DNA of 46,284 bases, from IMG/VR virus record IMGVR_UViG_3300043411_001121, positions 1 to 46,284 of that record; one strand, given 5' to 3'. Under the pieces are notes generated by a model. That model was not told where the DNA came from. It made no database searches and was given only the letters and a program-made list of their open reading frames with translations. The position numbers were made by a program, and so were the translations under genes. The DNA is from a virus. Shown here piece by piece: positions 1 through 46,284 of this stretch (positions within the stretch are counted from its first letter, which is position 1; every line of letters begins with the position of its first letter).

Positions 1-19
1 TAATGAATTCAAAGGCTCA
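1..19. repeat. Left copy of terminal 19-bp direct repeat (circular overlap)
   Basis: Bases 1-19 are identical to bases 46266-46284. An open reading frame on the minus strand runs through this point and continues in frame at the right end, so the repeat is best read as an assembly overlap of a circular or circularly permuted molecule rather than a biological terminal repeat. Confidence 0.9.
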
Positions 20-1231: not shown

Positions 1232-1444
1232 ATGCCAAAAAAACCTAAACGAAAAAGTGAAAAAAACGAACGACCTACGATTACTCGACGACTCGGTGTT
1301 AGTTTCACCGCCGAGGATAACAACATTATAATTAGATTGCGACACTTTTATGAAAATAAATATGGAACACAGTATTCTTCCATTGCGGTAATTCGTAAAG
1401 CTTTACGAACACAGGCCGAGAAAGAGGGTATTGAATGCGATTAA
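1232..1444 (+). CDS. Small basic protein, possible ribbon-helix-helix-type DNA-binding protein
   Basis: This 70-residue protein has a strongly basic N-terminus (PKKPKRKSEKNERP), then a beta-like segment (TRRLGVSFTAED) and two predicted helices ending RKALRTQAEK. That order (basic arm, strand, helix, helix) is what ribbon-helix-helix repressors and plasmid copy-control proteins look like. It is a structural guess, not a family match. The gene overlaps the primase-polymerase start by 10 bases. A role as autoregulator of the divergent promoters or as an origin-binding partner of the primase would fit the context. Confidence 0.65.
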   Translation: MPKKPKRKSEKNERPTITRRLGVSFTAEDNNIIIRLRHFYENKYGTQYSSIAVIRKALRTQAEKEGIECD

Positions 1445-3768
1445 ACGCTCAACGCATCCCGCAAGAGATGCGAGGATATCATCAATGGATTGTCTGGCGT
1501 TACGAAGACCGAAACGCTAAGAAACCAACGAAAGTACCATACGACCCGCGAACGGGATTAATGGCTAGTGTTATTGATCCCGTGACGTGGTGCGATTTTG
1601 ATACCGCGCTCGCGATATTAAGCGCGGGTACCGCCTACAATGGCCTAGGTTTCGTACTAACCGGCAGCGATCCGTATACGTTTATTGACCTTGATGACTG
1701 TGGCGGTAAACAGGTCGATATTGATCGACAGATAAAAATCTACCAAGAATTTGATAGCTACAGCGAACGCAGCCCGTCTGGTACAGGTTTGCATATCATT
1801 GTCAAAGGACATATACCACAGGGTCGCCGTAGAAGTTCAATTGAACTCTATTCCAGCGAACGTTATATGACGATGACTGGCGATGTTTTCAACGATAAGC
1901 CTATCCAGCATAAACAAGACGTGCTTCAACTGTTATGGGCGCAAATGGGAACGCATAGCGCGAATAATACCCACACTGGTGATGAGCCTGAAACAATGAC
2001 CGATCAACAAGTTGTCGAGAAGGCGCTAAACGCGGTTAACGGCGTTAAGTTTAACGCTTTGCTCTGTGGGAATTTTACTGAATTTTACCCTTCACAATCA
2101 GAAGCTGATTTTGCTTTCATCGATATTATTGCGTTTTACACACAAAATCGCGCACAAATTATACGTATTTTTTCTGCGTCACCGCTCGGCCAACGCGATA
2201 AAGCTAAACGCCCCGATTATGTCAATCGTATGATTCTACGGGCTTTCGATAACCTATTGCCGCCTATTAATATTATTGATTTGAAGAACAAAACGGACGC
2301 GCAAATCCAGGAAATAAAGCATGCTTTTTCTGCCATGCCGCATGTTAAATCCACCGATGATACGAACTTAAGTCGTATGAAGAAATTTTGGATACCGCAA
2401 CCGATAACACCGCCACCTGGTCTATTAGGAGAAATGGCTCGCTTTATTTATGCAGCATCACCGCGCCCTGTGGCAGAAACCGCTATTACTGCGGCTATCG
2501 GAATGCTGGCCGGGATTGCCGGTCGTGCGTTCAACGTTAGCGGTACAGGGCTTAATCAATACGTACTGTTGCTTGCGCCGACCGGTACCGGTAAAGAAGC
2601 TCTCGCTGGTGGTATCGGCAAGCTTTTCGATGCGATAAAGACCGCAGTACCCGCGTCCGCTGATTTTCGCGGCCCAAGCGAGATTGCGTCAGGACAAGCC
2701 TTGCTGAAGACAATCGATAACCCGAATAAACGCTCGTTCGTGAGTATAGTGGGGGAATTTGGTTTGAAATTACAGCAGCTTGCCAGCCCTCGCGCAAGCA
2801 GTAGTGAATTAATGCTGAAACGGGTGTTGCTCGATCTATACAATAAGTCAGGACATAGCGACAAGGTAATGCCCTCAATTTATGCAGCTAAAGAAAAAGA
2901 TACCGATGTTATCGACAATCCAGCCGTTTCAATCTTAGGTGAAAGCACGCCCGAAACTTTTTACGACAGTATTGACGAAAAGCTCATTACCGATGGTTTA
3001 CTACCGCGTTTTATTATCATCGAATACACAGGCAAACGGCCACCGCGCAATAAAGCCCACACACAGGCCCGGCCATCATTTCCTTTAATCGAAAGTTTAG
3101 CGGAAATAACCGGTTACTCCTTGTTGCTGCAACGCGAGAATCAAGTTATAAACGTAGAGACGGATGACGCGGCGTTGGCATTCCTTGACGAGGTTGATCG
3201 TCTTGTCGATGAAGCAATTAACGACACAACAACCGACGTTTTGCGGCATTTGTGGAACCGTGCGCATCTTAAGACGCTAAAGCTGGCCGCACTCGTCGCT
3301 GTTGGTTGCAATTTCACGCAACCCGTAATAACCGAGGAAATAGCGAAATGGGCGTACAACTTAGTTTCTGCGGATGTTGTGGGAATTGTTTCGCGTTTTT
3401 CTCGTGGAGAAATTGGTAAGAATACCGATGAGAACAAACAAGGTGTTACCGTTCTCAATTTATGTGCTGAATATCTAAGCCGCACTTTTAAGGAATTAAG
3501 AGCGTATCAAATAGATGAAACGCTTCATGCGGATCGCATAATTACGTATAATTTTATATCAAAACGTGTAGCTATGCGGGGTGTATTTCGTAACGATAAA
3601 ATGGGCGCAAGTACCGCATTAAAACGTACGGTGCAAGGGTTACTCGATGCTGGCGATTTGCAAGAAGTAGGTAGGCATACATTGCAACAAAAATATGCGT
3701 ATCATGGACGTGCGTTTGTCATACCACGACCAGAAAAGCTAGCCGCATCTATGGTAGAACAATATTAA
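1435..3768 (+). CDS. Primase-polymerase fused to P-loop ATPase (PrimPol/DUF3987-like)
   Basis: A 777-residue replication protein. The N-terminal ~160 residues carry archaeo-eukaryotic primase signatures: a DxD pair at D85/D87 (FIDLDD), SPSGTGLH at 113-120 with the catalytic-type His120, and RYMTMTGD at 143-150, as in P4-type and NrS-1-type primase-polymerases. Residues ~222-270 (ADFAFIDIIAFYTQNRAQII) match the linker that normally follows this primase domain. The C-terminal part has a Walker A-like APTGTGKE at 381-388 followed by a DUF3987-like ATPase region. It probably synthesises primers and may unwind or load at an origin. The stop codon lies inside the first of three iteron-like repeats. 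Start at 1435 overlaps the upstream gene in the usual coupled way. Confidence 0.88.
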   Translation: MRLNAQRIPQEMRGYHQWIVWRYEDRNAKKPTKVPYDPRTGLMASVIDPVTWCDFDTALAILSAGTAYNGLGFVLTGSDPYTFIDLDDCGGKQVDIDRQIKIYQEFDSYSERSPSGTGLHIIVKGHIPQGRRRSSIELYSSERYMTMTGDVFNDKPIQHKQDVLQLLWAQMGTHSANNTHTGDEPETMTDQQVVEKALNAVNGVKFNALLCGNFTEFYPSQSEADFAFIDIIAFYTQNRAQIIRIFSASPLGQRDKAKRPDYVNRMILRAFDNLLPPINIIDLKNKTDAQIQEIKHAFSAMPHVKSTDDTNLSRMKKFWIPQPITPPPGLLGEMARFIYAASPRPVAETAITAAIGMLAGIAGRAFNVSGTGLNQYVLLLAPTGTGKEALAGGIGKLFDAIKTAVPASADFRGPSEIASGQALLKTIDNPNKRSFVSIVGEFGLKLQQLASPRASSSELMLKRVLLDLYNKSGHSDKVMPSIYAAKEKDTDVIDNPAVSILGESTPETFYDSIDEKLITDGLLPRFIIIEYTGKRPPRNKAHTQARPSFPLIESLAEITGYSLLLQRENQVINVETDDAALAFLDEVDRLVDEAINDTTTDVLRHLWNRAHLKTLKLAALVAVGCNFTQPVITEEIAKWAYNLVSADVVGIVSRFSRGEIGKNTDENKQGVTVLNLCAEYLSRTFKELRAYQIDETLHADRIITYNFISKRVAMRGVFRNDKMGASTALKRTVQGLLDAGDLQEVGRHTLQQKYAYHGRAFVIPRPEKLAASMVEQY

Positions 3769-3864
3769 ACAGCGGTACCTCATTTAAATTTCAGTGGCAG
3801 TGCCATTAAGCGCACCGCCGCATCGAATATAAACGGCGGTACCACAGATATAAACGGCGGTACC
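3766..3864 (+). repeat. Iteron-like repeats, candidate replication origin
   Basis: TAAACRGCGGTACC occurs at 3766-3779, 3830-3843 and 3851-3864. The last two copies extend leftwards as identical 17-mers (3827-3843 and 3848-3864) spaced exactly 21 bp, two helical turns. An inverted core (ACCGCC) lies at about 3815. Direct repeats on one helical face directly downstream of a primase-polymerase gene are typical of plasmid and satellite-phage origins. The first copy contains the stop codon of that gene. Confidence 0.6.
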
Positions 3865-4175
3865 TGCAGGCCAGGGACCAAAGTTGATCGGCGCGCTTTG
3901 TTCTGTTGTTGATAAAAGCTGGCGAAATTTAAGCAAAACGATACCTATATACTTTGCGCTATAGACGCGATGTAAACATCGGTTATGTGATTTAGCGTCG
4001 AAAAGCTAGCTATGCTGTACGGGCTTTAAAATCGGTTTAATACCAAGGATCAAAATGAAGCCCTAGCGTCACCCATGGGTATTGGCAAACACAGGTGACG
4101 CAGGAACCGAATATATCTATTGCATACTACGTTTAAGTTGTCAAAAGAAAGCTCAGTTAAGGGCACCTAATAAAG
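3865..4175. other. Gene-free structured segment (possible origin or small RNA)
   Basis: No credible coding frame is present. Three inverted repeats follow one another: CGATGT/ACATCG with a 2-base loop (3968-3981), GGGCTT/AAGCCC (4021-4026 with 4058-4063), and GCGTCACC/GGTGACGC (4066-4073 with 4094-4101), whose loop contains the palindrome ACCCATGGGT. A -10-like TATACT sits at 3948-3953 without a clear -35. The segment could be the rest of an origin or a small RNA that ends at the terminator hairpin at 4176. I cannot decide between these. Confidence 0.4.
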
Positions 4176-4211
4176 ATAAACCCCGCACCGGTTGAGGAGT
4201 GCAGGGTTTAT
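4176..4211. terminator. Bidirectional hairpin terminator
   Basis: ATAAACCCCGCAC (4176-4188) pairs with GTGCAGGGTTTAT (4199-4211) with one mismatch and a 10-base loop. Because the stem ends are A/T-rich, it gives a T-tract on either strand. It lies between the rightward primase gene and the end of the leftward small-gene cluster, the expected place for a two-way terminator. Confidence 0.75.
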
Positions 4212-4257
4212 GTATCTAACAATCTTAGGCTCGTTTTAACTTTAAAGGTATGTAACG

Positions 4258-4506
4258 CTATTTGTCAAGCTTCTCTTTTGGTTTAGGTTGATTCATTTCT
4301 TGTTCTTTTAATCCGATTAACGCGTCTAATTTCCATTGCAAATCTTCTAACTGATCTTGCGTTTGTTTCTTTACTTTCTTGCCTTGTCGAGTAAATACCC
4401 ACATGACAATAAACAATAGATAGCGTGGATCGTGGAATAGCCAGGCTGTTAAGAGGGCGAAAACTAAGATTGATACACGGGTTAGTGCTGTTGCTAATTC
4501 GTTCAT
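4258..4506 (-). CDS. Small membrane protein, 82 aa, last gene of leftward cluster
   Basis: The ATG at 4506 has AAAGGA eight bases upstream. The longer frame starts with TTG and lacks a site. Residues ~10-40 are two closely spaced hydrophobic segments (VSILVFALLTAWLF and YLLFIVMWVF) separated by HDPR. A charged, helical C-terminus follows (QDQLEDLQWKLDALIG, then a Lys-rich tail). This suggests an inner-membrane hairpin with a cytoplasmic coiled coil. No family is recognised. Superinfection exclusion or another membrane-linked early role is possible but unproven. Confidence 0.7.
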   Translation of the reverse strand: MNELATALTRVSILVFALLTAWLFHDPRYLLFIVMWVFTRQGKKVKKQTQDQLEDLQWKLDALIGLKEQEMNQPKPKEKLDK

Positions 4507-4510
4507 TTTG

Positions 4511-4702
4511 TTATTCCTTTTCAAATAATAACTTTAATTCGTGTAGCCCATCAATAATCTTTTTGAGGCTTTTTGACATTTGTTTCGCTCTATGTTCGTC
4601 ATCCACACTAAATTTTATCTTTTTGATACAATATTCATGTGTTGCTGTGTATAATTCGATGTGTTTCGTTATACTAGATAACGCTTTACTGGTTGTACCC
4701 AT
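4511..4702 (-). CDS. Hypothetical protein, 63 aa
   Basis: The start at 4702 is preferred because GGGAGA lies seven bases upstream and the codon follows the stop of the preceding gene immediately. The protein is helical and basic with Lys-rich segments (HRAKQMSKSLKKIIDGL) and a single Cys. No motif identifies it. It is cotranscribed with its neighbours in the leftward cluster. Confidence 0.65.
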   Translation of the reverse strand: MGTTSKALSSITKHIELYTATHEYCIKKIKFSVDDEHRAKQMSKSLKKIIDGLHELKLLFEKE

Positions 4703-4703
4703 G

Positions 4704-5375
4704 TTATTCTCCCTCAGTTTCATTAAGAGCGTCGAGTAATTCAATAAATTCTTTATTTGCGTGGTTAAAGATTAATTCTGCGATAGCACCGTTACAGCGT
4801 AAGTCTTCCATCAAGCTAAATGCGGATAACGCATGCTGTAATTCGTCAACGTACTGACTTAACCAAAATTCGAGCAATGAACCTAACCGCGCTTCTCCCC
4901 ATTCAGCGATATCTACAGGCCATTCATTAACATTTGACGGATAGAAGCTAAAAAAGCCGTCATAGCTTGTGTATTCTGCTTTAACGAATTCAGCCCATTT
5001 TGTCGCGTTAAACCGGCTTAGACGCGGTATTGCTTTAAATATATTTGTATCAACATTTGCATAGATACAGTCAGTCGAAAAGTTATACTCACGCGGGCTT
5101 GTTAACTCAATAAATTCAGCATTCAGCTTGATTCTAGTTTCATTTGCGACAAATTCGTTAAACGTCTCAACGTATTTTTTAGCGTAAGCAAGATGTACGG
5201 CTTTCCAGTCGATATTTTCCGCGAAAGACTCAGCCAATTCTTGCACTTGCTCTAAAGTTTTTCCTTTTTCTGTCATTAACACGTCTTGTTCGTATTCCAA
5301 CCAATCATCTAATATAGCTTGATGTGTTGATTCGTAAAATCCTTCAAATGGTATTTTAATTGCTAATTTTGTCAT
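4704..5375 (-). CDS. Conserved-looking acidic protein, 223 aa, SPREYNF motif
   Basis: Largest protein of the leftward cluster. It is acidic (many Glu/Asp, Trp and Tyr) with no membrane segment. Residues ~92-100 read SPREYNFST, a phrase I recall from uncharacterised proteins of other phages and plasmids, but I cannot attach a function. Helical regions flank it and the C-terminus is rich in Glu. Acidity and position among early small genes would suit a DNA-mimic or host-inhibitor role, which is speculation. AAAGGAAT lies upstream of the ATG. Confidence 0.75.
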   Translation of the reverse strand: MTKLAIKIPFEGFYESTHQAILDDWLEYEQDVLMTEKGKTLEQVQELAESFAENIDWKAVHLAYAKKYVETFNEFVANETRIKLNAEFIELTSPREYNFSTDCIYANVDTNIFKAIPRLSRFNATKWAEFVKAEYTSYDGFFSFYPSNVNEWPVDIAEWGEARLGSLLEFWLSQYVDELQHALSAFSLMEDLRCNGAIAELIFNHANKEFIELLDALNETEGE

Positions 5376-5380
5376 AATCT

Positions 5381-5605
5381 TTATTCCTTTTGTTTGAGTG
5401 TTACATCATATTCTTTCAATAGAGCCCTAGCTTGCGCTAGGGCTTGATCTGTGTAAGACTGCGGCACGGCGTATTGTCGCGGGGTTAATCCTGTTGGAAA
5501 TCTATCTTGCATAGCTTTAATCCTGTCAACACCAAACCCGCATTCTTTCATCCGCGCATCGTGTAGTAATTTAGCTATATCAAAAATTTGTTGCTCTTTT
5601 GACAT
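5381..5605 (-). CDS. Hypothetical protein, 74 aa
   Basis: Soluble 74-residue protein with two probable helices around a central Pro-rich turn (RFPTGLTPRQYAVPQSY). It has no recognised motif. The start at 5605 lies three bases after the upstream stop, and AGGTAT is the only ribosome site candidate, so translation probably depends on coupling. Confidence 0.65.
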   Translation of the reverse strand: MSKEQQIFDIAKLLHDARMKECGFGVDRIKAMQDRFPTGLTPRQYAVPQSYTDQALAQARALLKEYDVTLKQKE

Positions 5606-5608
5606 AAA

Positions 5609-5812
5609 CTATACCTGTGGATTTAATTTGTTAAATTCAAACTCTTCGTTAAATTCAACCTCATGCATCTTGCAATAAACATCGAAGAACACCTGAGCCG
5701 TAATTTCGTCGGTGATATTGTTATGCAGGGTTTCACGAATTGTATCATCCATCAAGTTAACAACTGCATCAAAATCAAATTCTTTTCCATGGGCATTTAT
5801 AATTTTAGTCAT
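5609..5812 (-). CDS. Small acidic conserved phage protein, 67 aa
   Basis: The sequence begins MTKIINAHGKEFDFDAVV and continues LMDDTIRETL. I recall this opening from a family of uncharacterised small proteins in other phages and mobile elements. The rest is acidic (VEFNEEFEF). A perfect TAATTAGGAGATAAACAA leader precedes the ATG, nearly identical to that of the gene at 7734. A dedicated promoter lies at 5867-5906. The function is unknown. Confidence 0.75.
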   Translation of the reverse strand: MTKIINAHGKEFDFDAVVNLMDDTIRETLHNNITDEITAQVFFDVYCKMHEVEFNEEFEFNKLNPQV

Positions 5813-5863
5813 TTGTTTATCTCCTAATTACAGTTAAAGTTGCATTTCCCATTCCGTCATAAA

Positions 5864-6220
5864 TTAATCATAGCACGTTAAATTATGATAGTCAACAGCT
5901 AATTTCGTTTTAAGTGATAAATTACGTTCAATCGCCTTTTTACGCCACGTTTCAACTTCATTAATTACGTCGTCAGACAAAAGTTTATCGTTCCACGCTT
6001 TATTTACTCTACTTATACGTTCAGCGAGTTTATCCGCAGGAAACATACGCGCGACAAAATCTACGTTTCGACCACAGAATAATGTGTTATCGTGGCGAAT
6101 GCCCACAATCTCGCATAAAACGTGTAGTTTACCGTGTTTAATATCCCATAAAATCCGCGCTTCGCAATCGCTTGCCGATCCTTGACCAAAAGCGCATCTA
6201 CCCAAAGTTAATGTAGGCAT
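5864..6220 (-). CDS. Hypothetical protein, 118 aa, C-terminus overlaps a promoter
   Basis: No family is recognised. The N-terminal half is beta-like with two Cys (RCAFGQGSASDCEAR), and the C-terminal half is helical and basic. The last 14 codons are the same DNA as a near-consensus promoter for the next gene (5867-5906), so the tail sequence may be dictated by promoter function. The ribosome site GAGGGG lies upstream of the ATG at 6220. Confidence 0.7.
   Translation of the reverse strand: MPTLTLGRCAFGQGSASDCEARILWDIKHGKLHVLCEIVGIRHDNTLFCGRNVDFVARMFPADKLAERISRVNKAWNDKLLSDDVINEVETWRKKAIERNLSLKTKLAVDYHNLTCYD
5867..5906 (-). promoter_or_regulatory. Near-consensus sigma70 promoter inside a coding region (copy 2)
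   Basis: On the minus strand TTGACT (5895-5890), 17 bases, then TATGAT (5872-5867). The 17 bases from 5906 to 5890 (GAAATTAGCTGTTGACT) match those at 7810-7794 except at two positions, and both copies have TGC before the -10. The downstream leaders also share a 17-base ribosome-site block. It drives the gene starting at 5812 and those after it. Confidence 0.75.
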
Positions 6221-6283
6221 AGTATCCCCTCGTTTGTGATTGATTAGTGCATTTTCCAGATCAGCACAGGGGCAAAGTGATAT

Positions 6284-6562
6284 CTAAAGCTTATCAGGTT
6301 CTATTTTCTCACGCAATTGCTCTTTTAAGCGGTATGCGTGCATCGCGAGTGCCAAGATACCATATTCTTTGAGTTCATGCTGCAAGGTGTATTTTCGTTC
6401 CATTCTAAGCAAATATTGGTAACCGCGTCGTTCCCCGATTGAGTCTTCAATCACGCCCATGTTTTCCCCGCGTACCAAAATGTTAACTGATATAGGTTTA
6501 AAGTCAAATTCAACGTATATTTTATCTATTTTAAAATCAAATGTATGCGTTAATTTAGTCAT
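6284..6562 (-). CDS. Hypothetical protein, 92 aa
   Basis: The N-terminal half is a run of beta-like segments (THTFDFKIDKIYVEFDF), followed by an amphipathic basic helix (HAYRLKEQLREKIE). No family is recognised. AAAGGAAA is the ribosome site. Upstream DNA holds TATAAT at about 6584-6589 on the minus strand, preceded by TGGAAAATGCGC. A related TGGAAAATGC lies upstream of the gene at 6220, so these may be local promoter elements. Confidence 0.65.
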   Translation of the reverse strand: MTKLTHTFDFKIDKIYVEFDFKPISVNILVRGENMGVIEDSIGERRGYQYLLRMERKYTLQHELKEYGILALAMHAYRLKEQLREKIEPDKL

Positions 6563-6613
6563 ATAGCTTTCCTTTTGTTTAAATTATAGCGCATTTTCCA
6601 TAACTTATTTTAA

Positions 6614-6823
6614 TTATTGTGCAACAATCTTAAATTCAGAACTAAAATGTCGGCAATGCGAATTGAACGCTTTCCAGGCGCTATCTTGTTGTTCTATTGC
6701 TGCATCAATATACTTTTGATCAGCACCTGACCTAATTAGTTTAATCATTCGTTTGTCGCATGTAGCTACAGTACGACTTAAACTTTTTGCTTTCACTGTT
6801 AACGGTATTGTCGCATATGCCAT
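6614..6823 (-). CDS. Hypothetical protein, 69 aa
   Basis: The start at 6823 has AAAGGAG seven bases upstream. Longer readings do not. It is basic, with helix-forming segments (AKSLSRTVATCDKRMIKLIR) and a C-terminal aromatic stretch. No motif is recognised. It follows the upstream gene by two bases. Confidence 0.65.
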   Translation of the reverse strand: MAYATIPLTVKAKSLSRTVATCDKRMIKLIRSGADQKYIDAAIEQQDSAWKAFNSHCRHFSSEFKIVAQ

Positions 6824-6825
6824 AA

Positions 6826-7176
6826 CTATTCTCCTTTCTCTTTGTTGCACCAAAAATCAGTATGGTTATATAAATTGCTATAAAATAAGTCTTCAAACAG
6901 TTCAAATGTATCGCGCGGATAGTGTCTAAATATAAATTCACGTAATTCAGTTTGAAGTTCCTCTGTGTATGTTACTCTCACACCTAGCCTAATATCCCGA
7001 TTAGCCGCTATGCAAATTAGTTGATCTTTCAAAGCCGGTGAAATGTCTTCAATATACATTACGTAATCGCCTTTAACAACGCTTTCACGTATCGTGCATT
7101 GTTTACCGTTTAATAAAGCTCTTAAATCAGTTTTCATATTAATTACGTTAGGTGATTCTTTTTCATATTTAGCCAT
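6826..7176 (-). CDS. Hypothetical protein, 116 aa
   Basis: Mixed alpha/beta protein with a central beta region (CTIRESVVKGDYVMYIED) and an aromatic, acidic C-terminal part (YPRDTFELFEDLFYSNLYNH). No family is recognised. GGAG precedes the ATG, and the gene lies two bases after its upstream neighbour. Confidence 0.68.
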   Translation of the reverse strand: MAKYEKESPNVINMKTDLRALLNGKQCTIRESVVKGDYVMYIEDISPALKDQLICIAANRDIRLGVRVTYTEELQTELREFIFRHYPRDTFELFEDLFYSNLYNHTDFWCNKEKGE

Positions 7177-7178
7177 TT

Positions 7179-7523
7179 TTATTCTCCGATAAGATTAACA
7201 CGTTCTTGTTTGTATATACATGTCGAGTAGTTAGCGACGTAAAGAACACATTCGTTAAGTTTGAATTCGGCTAATTCTTCTTGCGTAGCTTTATCTCCTT
7301 CTGTGTTTTCCATGCGTCCCCATTCTAGCCTATTATTCATCTCGTCTATGTTTATATCTTCTAATTCAATATCAAAAAACGCAGCTATCTTAAATTTTAA
7401 CTCGTCAATAATTCCGGCCTCAAAATCAATGTCTAATTCAAAGTAGATTGTTTCACCGGTACAACCTGTGTCAAAGTTATCACGTTCAGTGTGTTTATAA
7501 ATTGTTCCATTTAAGTATGTCAT
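7179..7523 (-). CDS. Hypothetical acidic protein, 114 aa
   Basis: The ATG at 7523 is chosen because AAGGAA lies eight bases upstream; the frame is open to 7649 without a site. The protein is very acidic, with the central segment FELDIDFEAGIIDELKFKI followed by IELEDINIDEMNN and several Cys near the C-terminus. High acidity would suit a DNA mimic, but no family is recognised. Confidence 0.68.
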   Translation of the reverse strand: MTYLNGTIYKHTERDNFDTGCTGETIYFELDIDFEAGIIDELKFKIAAFFDIELEDINIDEMNNRLEWGRMENTEGDKATQEELAEFKLNECVLYVANYSTCIYKQERVNLIGE

Positions 7524-7548
7524 TTGTTTATTCCTTATTTTACAGGCA

Positions 7549-7734
7549 TTATTCGTGATCGTTAAATTCAATTGTTCCACATGTATTTCCGTTGTTGTCG
7601 CGCAACGATAATTCTTCGTTTGGTCTAGATATTGCGCGATTGAAATCAATACGCTTTATTACGTTCTCAATTTCACTAATCATATCGTCAATAAATGCGT
7701 CATTGTTCAGGTTTATTTTAATTGTTAATTCCAT
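7549..7734 (-). CDS. Hypothetical acidic protein, 61 aa, first gene of leftward cluster
   Basis: Short protein with a beta start (MELTIKINLNN), an acidic helix (FIDDMISEIENVIKR) and a C-terminal beta hairpin-like part. AGGAGA precedes the ATG. It is promoter-proximal, directly downstream of the strong promoter at 7771-7810, and so probably among the first proteins made after infection. The function is unknown. Confidence 0.68.
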   Translation of the reverse strand: MELTIKINLNNDAFIDDMISEIENVIKRIDFNRAISRPNEELSLRDNNGNTCGTIEFNDHE

Positions 7735-7770
7735 TGTTTATCTCCTAATTACGTTACTTGTTACCTTTAT

Positions 7771-7810
7771 ATGATAGCACTCTAATTCCGCTATGTCAAC
7801 ACCTAATTTC
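7771..7810 (-). promoter_or_regulatory. Strong sigma70 promoter for leftward small-gene cluster (copy 1)
   Basis: On the minus strand TTGACA (7799-7794), 17 bases, TATCAT (7776-7771), with TGC just before the -10 (the spacer ends AGTGC). The box GAAATTAGGTGTTGACA (7810-7794) recurs at 5906-5890. Transcription would begin near 7764, 30 bases before the first ATG. Confidence 0.8.
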
Positions 7811-8114
7811 AATAAAAATACGTTTCCCACAAAATAAGTTAAACCATAAGTTCTATCGTATAGAATGTGTACGACGTAGTGTACGAATAAACTAAATAAC
7901 ATAAAACGTACCATAGTTCCACAGATTTAACATGTTCAACCTATACTCTATCTATATAGGATTAATATCAAGAACCCTTATGTTATATGGTCTATATATA
8001 TAATCAATACATTAATATAAATAAAAGAAAAAGAGAGAGAATAACCAAAAGATCCTATACGCTAAGAATACGACGAATGGTATAATTACGATAGAGAGTA
8101 CGTTATACGATAGA

Positions 8115-8141
8115 AATAATAATAATAATAATAATAATAAT
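8115..8141 (+). repeat. (AAT)9 trinucleotide repeat
   Basis: Nine uninterrupted AAT units followed by an alternating TA stretch. It lies in the gene-free segment and could ease strand opening or vary in length. Confidence 0.95.
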
Positions 8142-8594
8142 ATATATTATATAGATAGACCAATAGAATCAAGGGTTGTGGCGACCAATACGTGGGTATA
8201 GGTTAATACGTAATTTCGTTGTCGTAATGAACTCGTACCGTCGTATTGAAACATTTCATACATGAAATCAAACATTCCACGCGAATAGTAATCAACTTAG
8301 TAATGTAATTAACACGAAGCCGCATAACTGTTATTATGGAAAATAACACGGAATCAATAACGTATATATAACAGTACCTTAGCATTTCGCCCTTGTTTAC
8401 GCGAGTACGAAACACTATATATGGTATTCTACGTGTTATAGTTGTGCTTCTATGTGCGATATACGACAGTACGTTGTGCGCTAGGCATACCCCCACCCCC
8501 TAGAATTTATACGTCAACCGCCGGGTATACGACATTAATTTCGGCGGGGAGACTCTCTTCGTCGTAATTAAGACGTATTTTAGCAATAAACCGC

Positions 8595-8623
8595 TTGACA
8601 AACTCGAACATTCCAGCTATCGT
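8595..8623 (+). promoter_or_regulatory. Sigma70-like promoter for rightward arm
   Basis: TTGACA (8595-8600), 17 bases, TATCGT (8618-8623). The expected start near 8630 coincides with a copy of the over-represented octamer (TGTGGGCA, 8630-8637). The first rightward gene begins at 8670. Confidence 0.6.
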
Positions 8624-8669
8624 ACATACTGTGGGCAATCACGTTCACACTAAAAATAAGAGGAATCTT

Positions 8670-9587
8670 ATGTTAAATACGACAGAGAATACGCGAGAAA
8701 TTGCGCTAGAAAAAGCGGCAGGTATTGTCGCAACGTTGTTTCGTCATGGTTACGTTGTTAATCTCGTGACTTCGACACACGACGTTATCGGTGCGGATGC
8801 GCGACTACTAATTGATTGCCTGAGAAATCAGGGCGGGGATGCATTTCAATTGGTGTGTCCGCAGGGTTCGGTACAACTTGATTTACGGTTAGGCGCTAAT
8901 TGCGTTACCAAGAATACGTTTCCGCTTGACCTTACGACGCTTGCTATTTTCGATGCGGTTCCGGCTGCCGGTCAGTTGCGTGCCGTACTTATAGCGGTCG
9001 TTAAGTTCTTGTTAGAATTGGAAAGTGGCGGCTTTGTGTCCGGCGGCAATACCGCTGCGTTGAAAATGAAGGAGCAAACACGCGAACTTCGGGCGCTCGT
9101 CATCGATGCTTGTGGCGCAATGCAAGGCGAGACGCCGAAATCGTATAAAGAACAAATCCGCGAAATGGAAGCAAATGACGGCGAGGAGCAACGGGCTTTG
9201 CTTAAACCAGGCGCGACAGCGCAACAGGATGGTCGAATCGAGAAGCTATTTAAATCGGTGCTTATTTGCGAAGCAGTGCTGCGCTGCGTCCTGGAGGCGG
9301 GTTACTCTATTTCAATTTATGGCCCGGCACAGGCAACGCGGGGTTGTTGGTATTCTGTGCCCAGGCAAACAATCGAAGAACTCAGTAAAGAAGCTCTCGA
9401 CGCTATTTTTGCGAATGAACAAGTCGCCTTTATCTACTGTATGCGCAAAACTGATAAAGCTAACCAAGAGAAGGCGATTCAACTGGATATACGTAAGGGC
9501 ATCGATGTTATTCAACAATACGACGTGGGTTTCGGCGATGAACTTAATCCGGCGCTCGATCTGGCCGAAAAATTGAGGAGGGCTTAG
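8670..9587 (+). CDS. Hypothetical protein, 305 aa, possible internal duplication
   Basis: The ATG at 8670 has AGAGGAA six bases upstream. An in-frame TTG at 8595 is the -35 box and is rejected. Two parts look related: an early one with FRHGYVVNLVTS leading to QLDLRLG, and a late one with VLEAGYSISIYGP leading to IQLDIRKG. They are joined by a helical, charged linker. No catalytic motif or family is recognised. It is the first gene of the rightward arm, so a delayed-early role is possible. Confidence 0.75.
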   Translation: MLNTTENTREIALEKAAGIVATLFRHGYVVNLVTSTHDVIGADARLLIDCLRNQGGDAFQLVCPQGSVQLDLRLGANCVTKNTFPLDLTTLAIFDAVPAAGQLRAVLIAVVKFLLELESGGFVSGGNTAALKMKEQTRELRALVIDACGAMQGETPKSYKEQIREMEANDGEEQRALLKPGATAQQDGRIEKLFKSVLICEAVLRCVLEAGYSISIYGPAQATRGCWYSVPRQTIEELSKEALDAIFANEQVAFIYCMRKTDKANQEKAIQLDIRKGIDVIQQYDVGFGDELNPALDLAEKLRRA

Positions 9588-9770: not shown

Positions 9771-10250
9771 ATGTTTAAAAGTATACTTAAATCGATTAAA
9801 GCTCGGTTCTGTAATGGGTACGCGAAAGGAGGCTATGCTTCTAGTGATGAAAGTAAGCCAAAGCTTTGCGATTTCGTGGTTATTGATGAGTTTCGTTCTA
9901 TTGCAGACACTGAATGGGCGGATTTGAACGACCGCCTAACGAATAGAAACAATCGTATCCATTCTGTGACAGTAGTTGTTGGCGACAACCCAACGGGTAG
10001 CACAATGTGGGGAAAATCAATCGCCGAACAAGCACTCGACCCAAGTTATGGCATGACGTTAAGCGAACAACTGGAGGCCACCACTAATCAATTACGCACA
10101 AACGAACATCGAGCGCTTAAAGCTGCCGAATACGCGTACAAACAACACTTGGCCGAAACAGACGGTGCTAGCGATACATTTTTAACTGTACAAACTATCG
10201 TTGAAGCGTATACTGATTACAGAAACGCAACAAACGAACAAAAGGAATAA
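9771..10250 (+). CDS. Hypothetical protein, 159 aa
   Basis: It starts at an ATG one base after the preceding stop. The N-terminus is basic (FKSILKSIKARFCNGYAKGG). The middle is mixed (CDFVVIDEFRSIADTEW) and the C-terminal 70 residues look helical (EQLEATTNQLRTNEHRALKA). I recognise no family. Confidence 0.68.
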   Translation: MFKSILKSIKARFCNGYAKGGYASSDESKPKLCDFVVIDEFRSIADTEWADLNDRLTNRNNRIHSVTVVVGDNPTGSTMWGKSIAEQALDPSYGMTLSEQLEATTNQLRTNEHRALKAAEYAYKQHLAETDGASDTFLTVQTIVEAYTDYRNATNEQKE

Positions 10251-10254
10251 ACAA

Positions 10255-10878
10255 ATGTGGTATGAACTAATTAAATCGCTAAAATTGTGGTTAACCATAG
10301 ACTACCTTGTTACGGCAAGTATCTTGTACATACTCTTTTTTCTAGCAGCGTTATCCGCACTTTGGGTACACGACGCAGGGGCTGCCGAACCGGTTCCCGC
10401 TAAATGGGCGCGAGTCCAGGACTGGTTCAATCAACAGACCTACACCGAGAAGGCCATAAGCGATGCTGAATTCACAAAGCTACTCGTGGGTACCAATCAA
10501 CGCATTAATCAGCGGCGATATCAGAGCGACAAGGGCGATCACTGGAAGACACCCGCTGAATTTAGGGCCGATGATGGCGGTGATTGCGAGGATTATGTAA
10601 TAGCTAAGATGGATGCGTTGGCTCGTGCCGGTATTCCGTTAGAATCGATGGAACTACTTATAGTTAAGCGCAATCAGCTTTTTTCCCATGCGTTACTCGC
10701 GGTTCAACGGGGCGGCGGCACTATGTTGCTCGATAATCAGAGCGACTTACCCACAGTATCGTTAAGCGCGTCCTATCGTATAGTTTACCGTATAGTTATA
10801 CATAAAGTAGCTAATAGGGTGTATGCTACGTATGACGAACTAGAACGCGTAATGTCGTTTAACACAATGGGTTACTAG
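10255..10878 (+). CDS. Transglutaminase-like cysteine peptidase (BTLCP/DUF920-like), membrane-anchored
   Basis: The ATG at 10255 has AAAGGAA upstream. Residues ~17-37 are a membrane segment or signal anchor (LVTASILYILFFLAALSALW), so the catalytic part should face the periplasm. The motif DDGGDCEDYVIAKMDAL at about 106-122 is the signature of bacterial transglutaminase-like cysteine proteinases, with Cys111 as nucleophile. His145 (FSHALLAV) and Asp160 (LLDNQ) complete the triad. Chromosomal members process surface adhesins; phage members are uncharacterised. It precedes a nuclease and the lysis genes. Confidence 0.85.
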   Translation: MWYELIKSLKLWLTIDYLVTASILYILFFLAALSALWVHDAGAAEPVPAKWARVQDWFNQQTYTEKAISDAEFTKLLVGTNQRINQRRYQSDKGDHWKTPAEFRADDGGDCEDYVIAKMDALARAGIPLESMELLIVKRNQLFSHALLAVQRGGGTMLLDNQSDLPTVSLSASYRIVYRIVIHKVANRVYATYDELERVMSFNTMGY

Positions 10879-45983: not shown

Positions 45984-46284
45984 TTATCCTATGATTTTGT
46001 TAAACAATTGACCTAAATGTGGTTGCTCGAATTCAGCGAGTTTTCCACTCCTATCACGCGCGAGAACGTTGTGAGCTTCTCGCGTACGTAATGCCGTAAC
46101 CTCGCCGACGTTTGGTATCAACGTCTTGCCTAGGTGTAATATTTCGTCGTATTTATGTGGTATTTCCGTTTTTAACCATTGACCCTCGAATTGTGGGATA
46201 CGTTTACCGTCATCGTCACGTGTTTCCTTGGCAATTAGATAAGCATGCTTTGTTCGCATATAATATAATGAATTCAAAGGCTCA
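45984..46284 (-). CDS. Sak4-like RecA-fold ATPase, C-terminal part (begins at 378)
   Basis: The frame continues without stop from the left end of the window. Counted on the circle (1-378 plus 45984-46265) it is 660 bases, exactly 220 codons. This part contains YLIAKETRDDDGKRIPQFEG and ends near LGQLFNKIIG; a segment with TALRTREAHNVLARDR is basic and may touch DNA. The TTG at 46277 is not a start. Its stop is five bases before the DUF669 start. Confidence 0.8.
   Translation of the reverse strand, partial: EPLNSLYYMRTKHAYLIAKETRDDDGKRIPQFEGQWLKTEIPHKYDEILHLGKTLIPNVGEVTALRTREAHNVLARDRSGKLAEFEQPHLGQLFNKIIG
46266..46284. repeat. Right copy of terminal 19-bp direct repeat
   Basis: Identical to bases 1-19. 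See the left copy for the reading as circular overlap. Confidence 0.9.

Follow-up and report, generated by a model that had tools for sequence, protein, structure and literature searches.

A putative early counter-defence cassette with an AcrIC5-family gene in a distant relative of KL1-like phages

Results

A leftward cluster of eleven small genes

The minus strand between positions 4258 and 7734 of the window (the whole stretch of DNA analyzed, which is an entire IMG/VR virus record of 46,284 bp) was found to contain all eleven of the small leftward ORFs described in an earlier note on this sequence (Table 1). When ORFs were called together with a Shine–Dalgarno (SD) sequence, 11 were recovered, filling 93% of the strand in the interval 4258–7760, with none on the opposite strand of the same interval and no more than one in any of 300 dinucleotide shuffles. 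The starts of g2, g4, g10, and g11 were revised to ATG codons with an SD sequence (7523, 6823, 4702, and 4506, respectively), and an SD match of 4–6 nt is present 7–9 nt ahead of the start in 11 of the 11 genes. The composition of the products was as previously described: g1, g2, g7, and g9 are acidic (net charges of −7, −16, −9, and −22), and a membrane segment is present only in g11, whose maximum 19-residue hydropathy is 1.82, compared with 0.92 or less for the other ten. Basic proteins are encoded by g4, g6, g8, g10, and g11. No relatives of g2 and g6 were found in the phage collection. Matches of the small proteins to Pseudin, BORCS8, UL51, and anti-sigma families scored below the cut-offs and were rejected.

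Table 1. Coordinates of the cluster genes and associated features in the window.
Feature	Position	Strand	Description
Primase/helicase gene	1435..3768	+	flanks the cluster, convergent to it; anchor for comparing relatives
Terminator-like hairpin	4176..4211	-	14-bp stem; past g11, before the convergent primase gene
g11	4258..4506	-	82 aa, membrane protein; L146 counterpart at same position
g10	4511..4702	-	63 aa, basic
g9	4704..5375	-	223 aa, acidic, phrog_37559 family
g8	5381..5605	-	74 aa, basic
g7	5609..5812	-	67 aa, AcrIC5-family anti-CRISPR protein (PF22147)
g7 leader	5813..5830	-	TAATTAGGAGATAAACAA, includes SD; copy of g1 leader
Promoter P3	5867..5895	-	TTGACT-17-TATGAT, extended −10; within 3' end of g6, upstream of g7
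g6	5864..6220	-	118 aa, basic
g5	6284..6562	-	92 aa
g4	6614..6823	-	69 aa, basic
g3	6826..7176	-	116 aa
g2	7179..7523	-	114 aa (ATG start), net −16; weak phrog_18030 match; probable L146 counterpart
g1	7549..7734	-	61 aa, acidic (net −7); weak phrog_9027 match
g1 leader	7734..7751	-	TAATTAGGAGATAAACAA, includes SD; identical to g7 leader
Promoter P1	7771..7799	-	TTGACA-17-TATCAT, extended −10; upstream of g1

Promoters and leaders

The pattern TTGAC-N15-TGNTATNAT has exactly two matches in the 46 kb (0.01 expected), both on the minus strand, which bears out the earlier claim of near-consensus host promoters. The two sites, P1 and P3, also have GAAATTAGNTGTTGAC around the −35 element in common. 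The 18-nt leader TAATTAGGAGATAAACAA is present in two exact copies in the window, the expected number being 0.04 even when up to 3 mismatches are allowed. The arrangement is best explained by two leftward units, g1–g6 transcribed from P1 and g7–g11 from P3. Because the promoters, the shared GAAATTAGNTGTTGAC, and the identical leaders go together, both units open with a copy of the same promoter–leader cassette, and g1 thus has the same signals as the acr gene g7. A TATAAT element lacking a −35 match is located about 20–26 nt upstream of g5. The type and position of the promoters suggest early transcription of the cluster, since they are of the host type and no phage RNA polymerase was recognized among the matches listed in a whole-window Pfam search.

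Genome context

An exact 19-bp repeat is present at both ends of the record (window 1–19 and 46266–46284), a feature expected when a circular assembly covers the complete genome, and the record is probably complete. Replication, head, and lambda-type tail families are among the window-wide Pfam matches listed (25 of 26 families), and an integrase is not among them. The cluster comes directly after the primase gene in genome order, its GC content is 0.31–0.41 compared with 0.46 genome-wide, and it is best explained as an accessory cassette that separates the replication half from the structural half of a siphophage genome of the Kilunavirus/Septimatrevirus type. Since an Rfam scan of 3700–8700 gave no match, no known RNA family was recognized there. 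An AT-rich stretch of ~860 bp without a convincing gene (window 7800–8660) separates two divergent transcription units; it includes an AAT repeat run near 8110–8142 and promoter-like sites, and may contain regulatory sites or an origin. At window 10201–10878, a gene for a Peptidase_C93 (transglutaminase-like cysteine peptidase) protein adjoins a VRR-NUC nuclease gene; this protein had a partial match in only one primase relative. DNA searches of 392 and 369 genomes revealed no credible protospacer or prophage, and the matches obtained were short, diverged, and mostly to one conserved stretch, so that no host was assigned from them.

As judged by protein identity, the phage is distantly related to KL1/Septimatrevirus. 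Its primase shares 50–52% identity with the primases of Burkholderia phage KL1 (Kilunavirus) and of Pseudomonas Septimatrevirus phages, several of which have been described as lytic. In the case of KL1, identities were 51% for the primase, 56% for the helicase, 44% for the exonuclease, and 37% for the clamp, with the same arrangement of genes. A megablast search with 3500–9000, the sole stretch compared as DNA, produced no match among 50,697 phage records, and identity at the genus level was not reached. Exact peptide patterns taken from the single primase, g7, or g9 sequence found no close relatives, and alignments were needed.

g7 belongs to the AcrIC5 family

The earlier note had described the cluster proteins as lacking recognized domains. 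This does not hold for g7, which matched Pfam family PF22147 (AcrIC5) with a score of 61.9 bits (cut-off 27; E = 6.5e-17) over positions 1–53 of the 53-position profile. The profile is not promiscuous, since searches of 397 other Pseudomonadota genomes and of 14 controls gave no match to it. A phmmer search linked g7 to PDB 7YHR (E = 1.8e-8), the Pseudomonas delhiensis protein (L040), to which it is 42% identical. All 10 columns invariant in 18 family sequences are kept in g7 (G9, V18, M21, D22, R26, E27, Q40, F42, Y46, and H50), and the protein is small and acidic (67 aa, pI 4.4). An AlphaFold2 model of g7 based on these sequences had a pLDDT of 89, and a Foldseek search with this model returned 7YHR first (probability 1.00; TM 0.78/0.88, with 0.88 by target length; rmsd 1.3), while every other PDB match had E > 1, making 7YHR the sole significant fold. 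Membership of g7 in the AcrIC5 family is thus strongly supported by profile, identity, and predicted fold. The gene is the first of the second promoter unit. No HTH family, as would be expected of an aca-like regulator, was recognized among g1–g11 in Pfam, PHROGs, or NCBIfam.

In published work, AcrIC5 relieved CRISPRi by a type I-C system, an assay that reports on DNA binding by Cascade, from which it follows that AcrIC5 blocks this binding; a distantly related I-C system of Eggerthella lenta was inhibited as well (León et al., PMC7913775). In a later paper, the group that determined the 7YHR structure counts AcrIC5 among Acrs that are small and acidic and bind at the site for target DNA (PMC10478522). 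By analogy with the tested protein, we infer that g7 is a type I-C CRISPR inhibitor.

Other members of the family were found in diverse viruses, and no neighbour in common with the other ten cluster proteins was seen beside any of them. Two gut microviruses, recognized by their major capsid protein (Phage_F), contain AcrIC5-family ORFs that are unannotated in their records: L003:3769-3954 (MG945373), at 89 bits, and L005:3702-3902 (KT264799), at 75 bits to PF22147. A search of the literature for microviruses and anti-CRISPRs, at the level of titles, found no paper on such ORFs. A third ORF (L018:5990-6172, 70 bits) is on a contig of 7.4 kb that also encodes Zot and a G2P replication protein of the filamentous-phage type; besides tailed phages and microviruses, the carriers of the family therefore include an inovirus-like contig. 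For the small contigs L012, L013, and L016, microvirus identity is not claimed. In a gut phage, an 87-aa helix-turn-helix-like ORF (L004:4660-4923) is located immediately upstream of the AcrIC5 gene (5001-5198), and is possibly a new aca regulator.

g9 represents a widespread family of acidic phage proteins

g9 is no orphan and belongs to a widespread phage family. It matched phrog_37559 (E = 7e-7), and the same profile matched 40 of 45 aligned family members. A search with the family alignment, which included relatives from phages PCA1, TaPaz, LS06, and BS-TP1, revealed relatives in at least 253 viral contigs. Aligned members were acidic without exception (45 of 45; pI 4.1–5.1). Signatures of the family are [LI]PFxGFYxSxHD, SPREYNFxTDRIF, and SRSGFISFYS. 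In PCA1, the g9 relative is also part of a small-gene cluster, between the primase and the terminase.

The g9 model (pLDDT 93.8) matched only unannotated viral proteins, with no PDB fold at E ≤ 0.001 (best E, 0.42), and a Pfam match was likewise absent; neither ArdA nor another solved DNA mimic was thus matched by sequence or fold. Neither g7 nor g9 had a match in plasmids. ArdA was found near g9 relatives at 6 of 84 loci, compared with 0 of 107 comparison loci; as these six include four nearly identical loci, the linkage is taken as a hint only. That g9 acts as a DNA mimic is put forward as a hypothesis.

Comparison with related phages

AcrIC5 was present in none of 66 IMG/VR relatives collected through the primase, and g9 was present in only one of them, L146. 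Small genes after the primase start leftward in a few other relatives too and run rightward in most, as judged with a simple ORF caller. L146 (identities of 62% for the polymerase, 65% for the helicase, and 62% for the portal) has the closest layout, with twelve leftward small genes after the primase. Among these, counterparts of g9 (E = 3e-19), g11 (3e-8), and probably g2 (4e-5) were found in the same order. No AcrIC5 gene occurs anywhere in the L146 record, and no known Acr family was recognized among its cluster proteins. The turnover raised by the earlier note was thus seen for most genes, which are replaced in L146, and does not extend to g9 and g11, which are conserved there. By gene content, the two loci are a conserved frame with exchanged content.

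Discussion

We consider the locus to be a counter-defence cassette that is expressed early and in which one gene can be identified as coding for an inhibitor of type I-C CRISPR, the roles of the other ten genes being inferred, and give this reading a probability of about three in four. Given near-consensus promoters and no phage RNA polymerase among the Pfam matches listed, the host σ70 RNA polymerase would transcribe the cluster soon after injection. The small, acidic g7 protein would then bind type I-C Cascade and keep it off phage DNA, as expected from the tested AcrIC5. By association, g1, which belongs to the other unit and has the same promoter–leader cassette, and the conserved, acidic g9 may be further counter-defence or host-interaction proteins, while the remaining genes may be swapped among phages to match host defences. 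The anti-defence role proposed in the earlier note is therefore upheld for g7, by profile, identity, and fold; for the other ten it is guilt by association. Since g7 belongs to the AcrIC5 family, these neighbours are good candidates for more anti-defence proteins.

The strongest competitor is a general host-takeover region, coding for proteins that inhibit host transcription, replication, or nucleases, which acquired a single acr gene by insertion and whose other genes are not related to immunity. We rate this at somewhat less than an even chance. It fits the retention of g9 and g11 without AcrIC5 in L146, the occupation of the same place by other small genes in related phages, and the fact that the other ten genes never accompany AcrIC5 elsewhere; on the other hand, anti-defence genes of other kinds are often found clustered with acr genes (PMC7648647), and g1 has the same promoter–leader cassette as the acr gene. 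A role in the virion or late in infection, with no part in defence, is highly improbable: nothing was found in its favour, and it is opposed by promoters near the host consensus, by the separation of the cluster from the structural genes and its location on the opposite strand, by the finding of no structural-family match among g1–g11 in Pfam and PHROGs, and by the AcrIC5 membership of g7.

The activity of g7 itself could also differ from that of its namesake. To our knowledge, the Pseudomonas AcrIC5 is the only family member tested. Since g7 shares 42% identity with that protein, and family members occur in viruses that are not related to one another, microviruses and an inovirus-like contig among them, one can imagine that g7, despite its AcrIC5 fold, acts in its own host against a different CRISPR subtype or a different defence, or that its activity was lost. 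We find this unlikely, as g7 keeps the invariant family columns, the acidity, and the fold, and the tested AcrIC5 is active against two I-C systems that are distant from each other (PMC7913775). An extension of the counter-defence cassette reading, in which the g9 family would be new-fold, broad counter-defence proteins, perhaps DNA mimics, and g1 a second new inhibitor, is doubtful at present.

The analysis turns a vague set of "eleven unknown genes" into a testable locus, in which g1 and g9 are the next genes to assay. It also adds a recognizable inhibitor of type I-C CRISPR to a phage group that has no other AcrIC5 carrier among the relatives found. The g9 family is common in phages and has a confident fold without a known function or a solved structure, and a single assay could therefore annotate hundreds of phages. 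Its closest entries, phrog_37559 and phrog_8431, are uncharacterized families; g9, which matches phrog_37559, is full-length, and its model is confident.

Compared with the AcrIC5 of Pseudomonas delhiensis (WP_089394111, PDB 7YHR), g7 is alike in profile, invariant residues, acidity, small size, and predicted fold. It differs in being 7 residues longer at 42% identity, in having a tail that contains NP, common to other environmental members, and in being located in a KL1-like phage without a recognized adjoining aca gene. As in the present phage, small genes come right after the homologous primase in KL1 and Septimatrevirus; they share nothing detectable with g1–g11, and in KL1 and UF_RH5 they run rightward, whereas here they run leftward. 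The arrangement as such is known, and this locus adds a new case of it, in which g1 and g9 are the most promising genes to follow up. In archaeal viruses, anti-defence genes have been successfully located through the early promoters that they share, and there too acr and small genes are found behind one strong upstream regulatory sequence (PMC11065993); here, in contrast, the sequence is a bacterial σ70-type promoter, present in two copies only.
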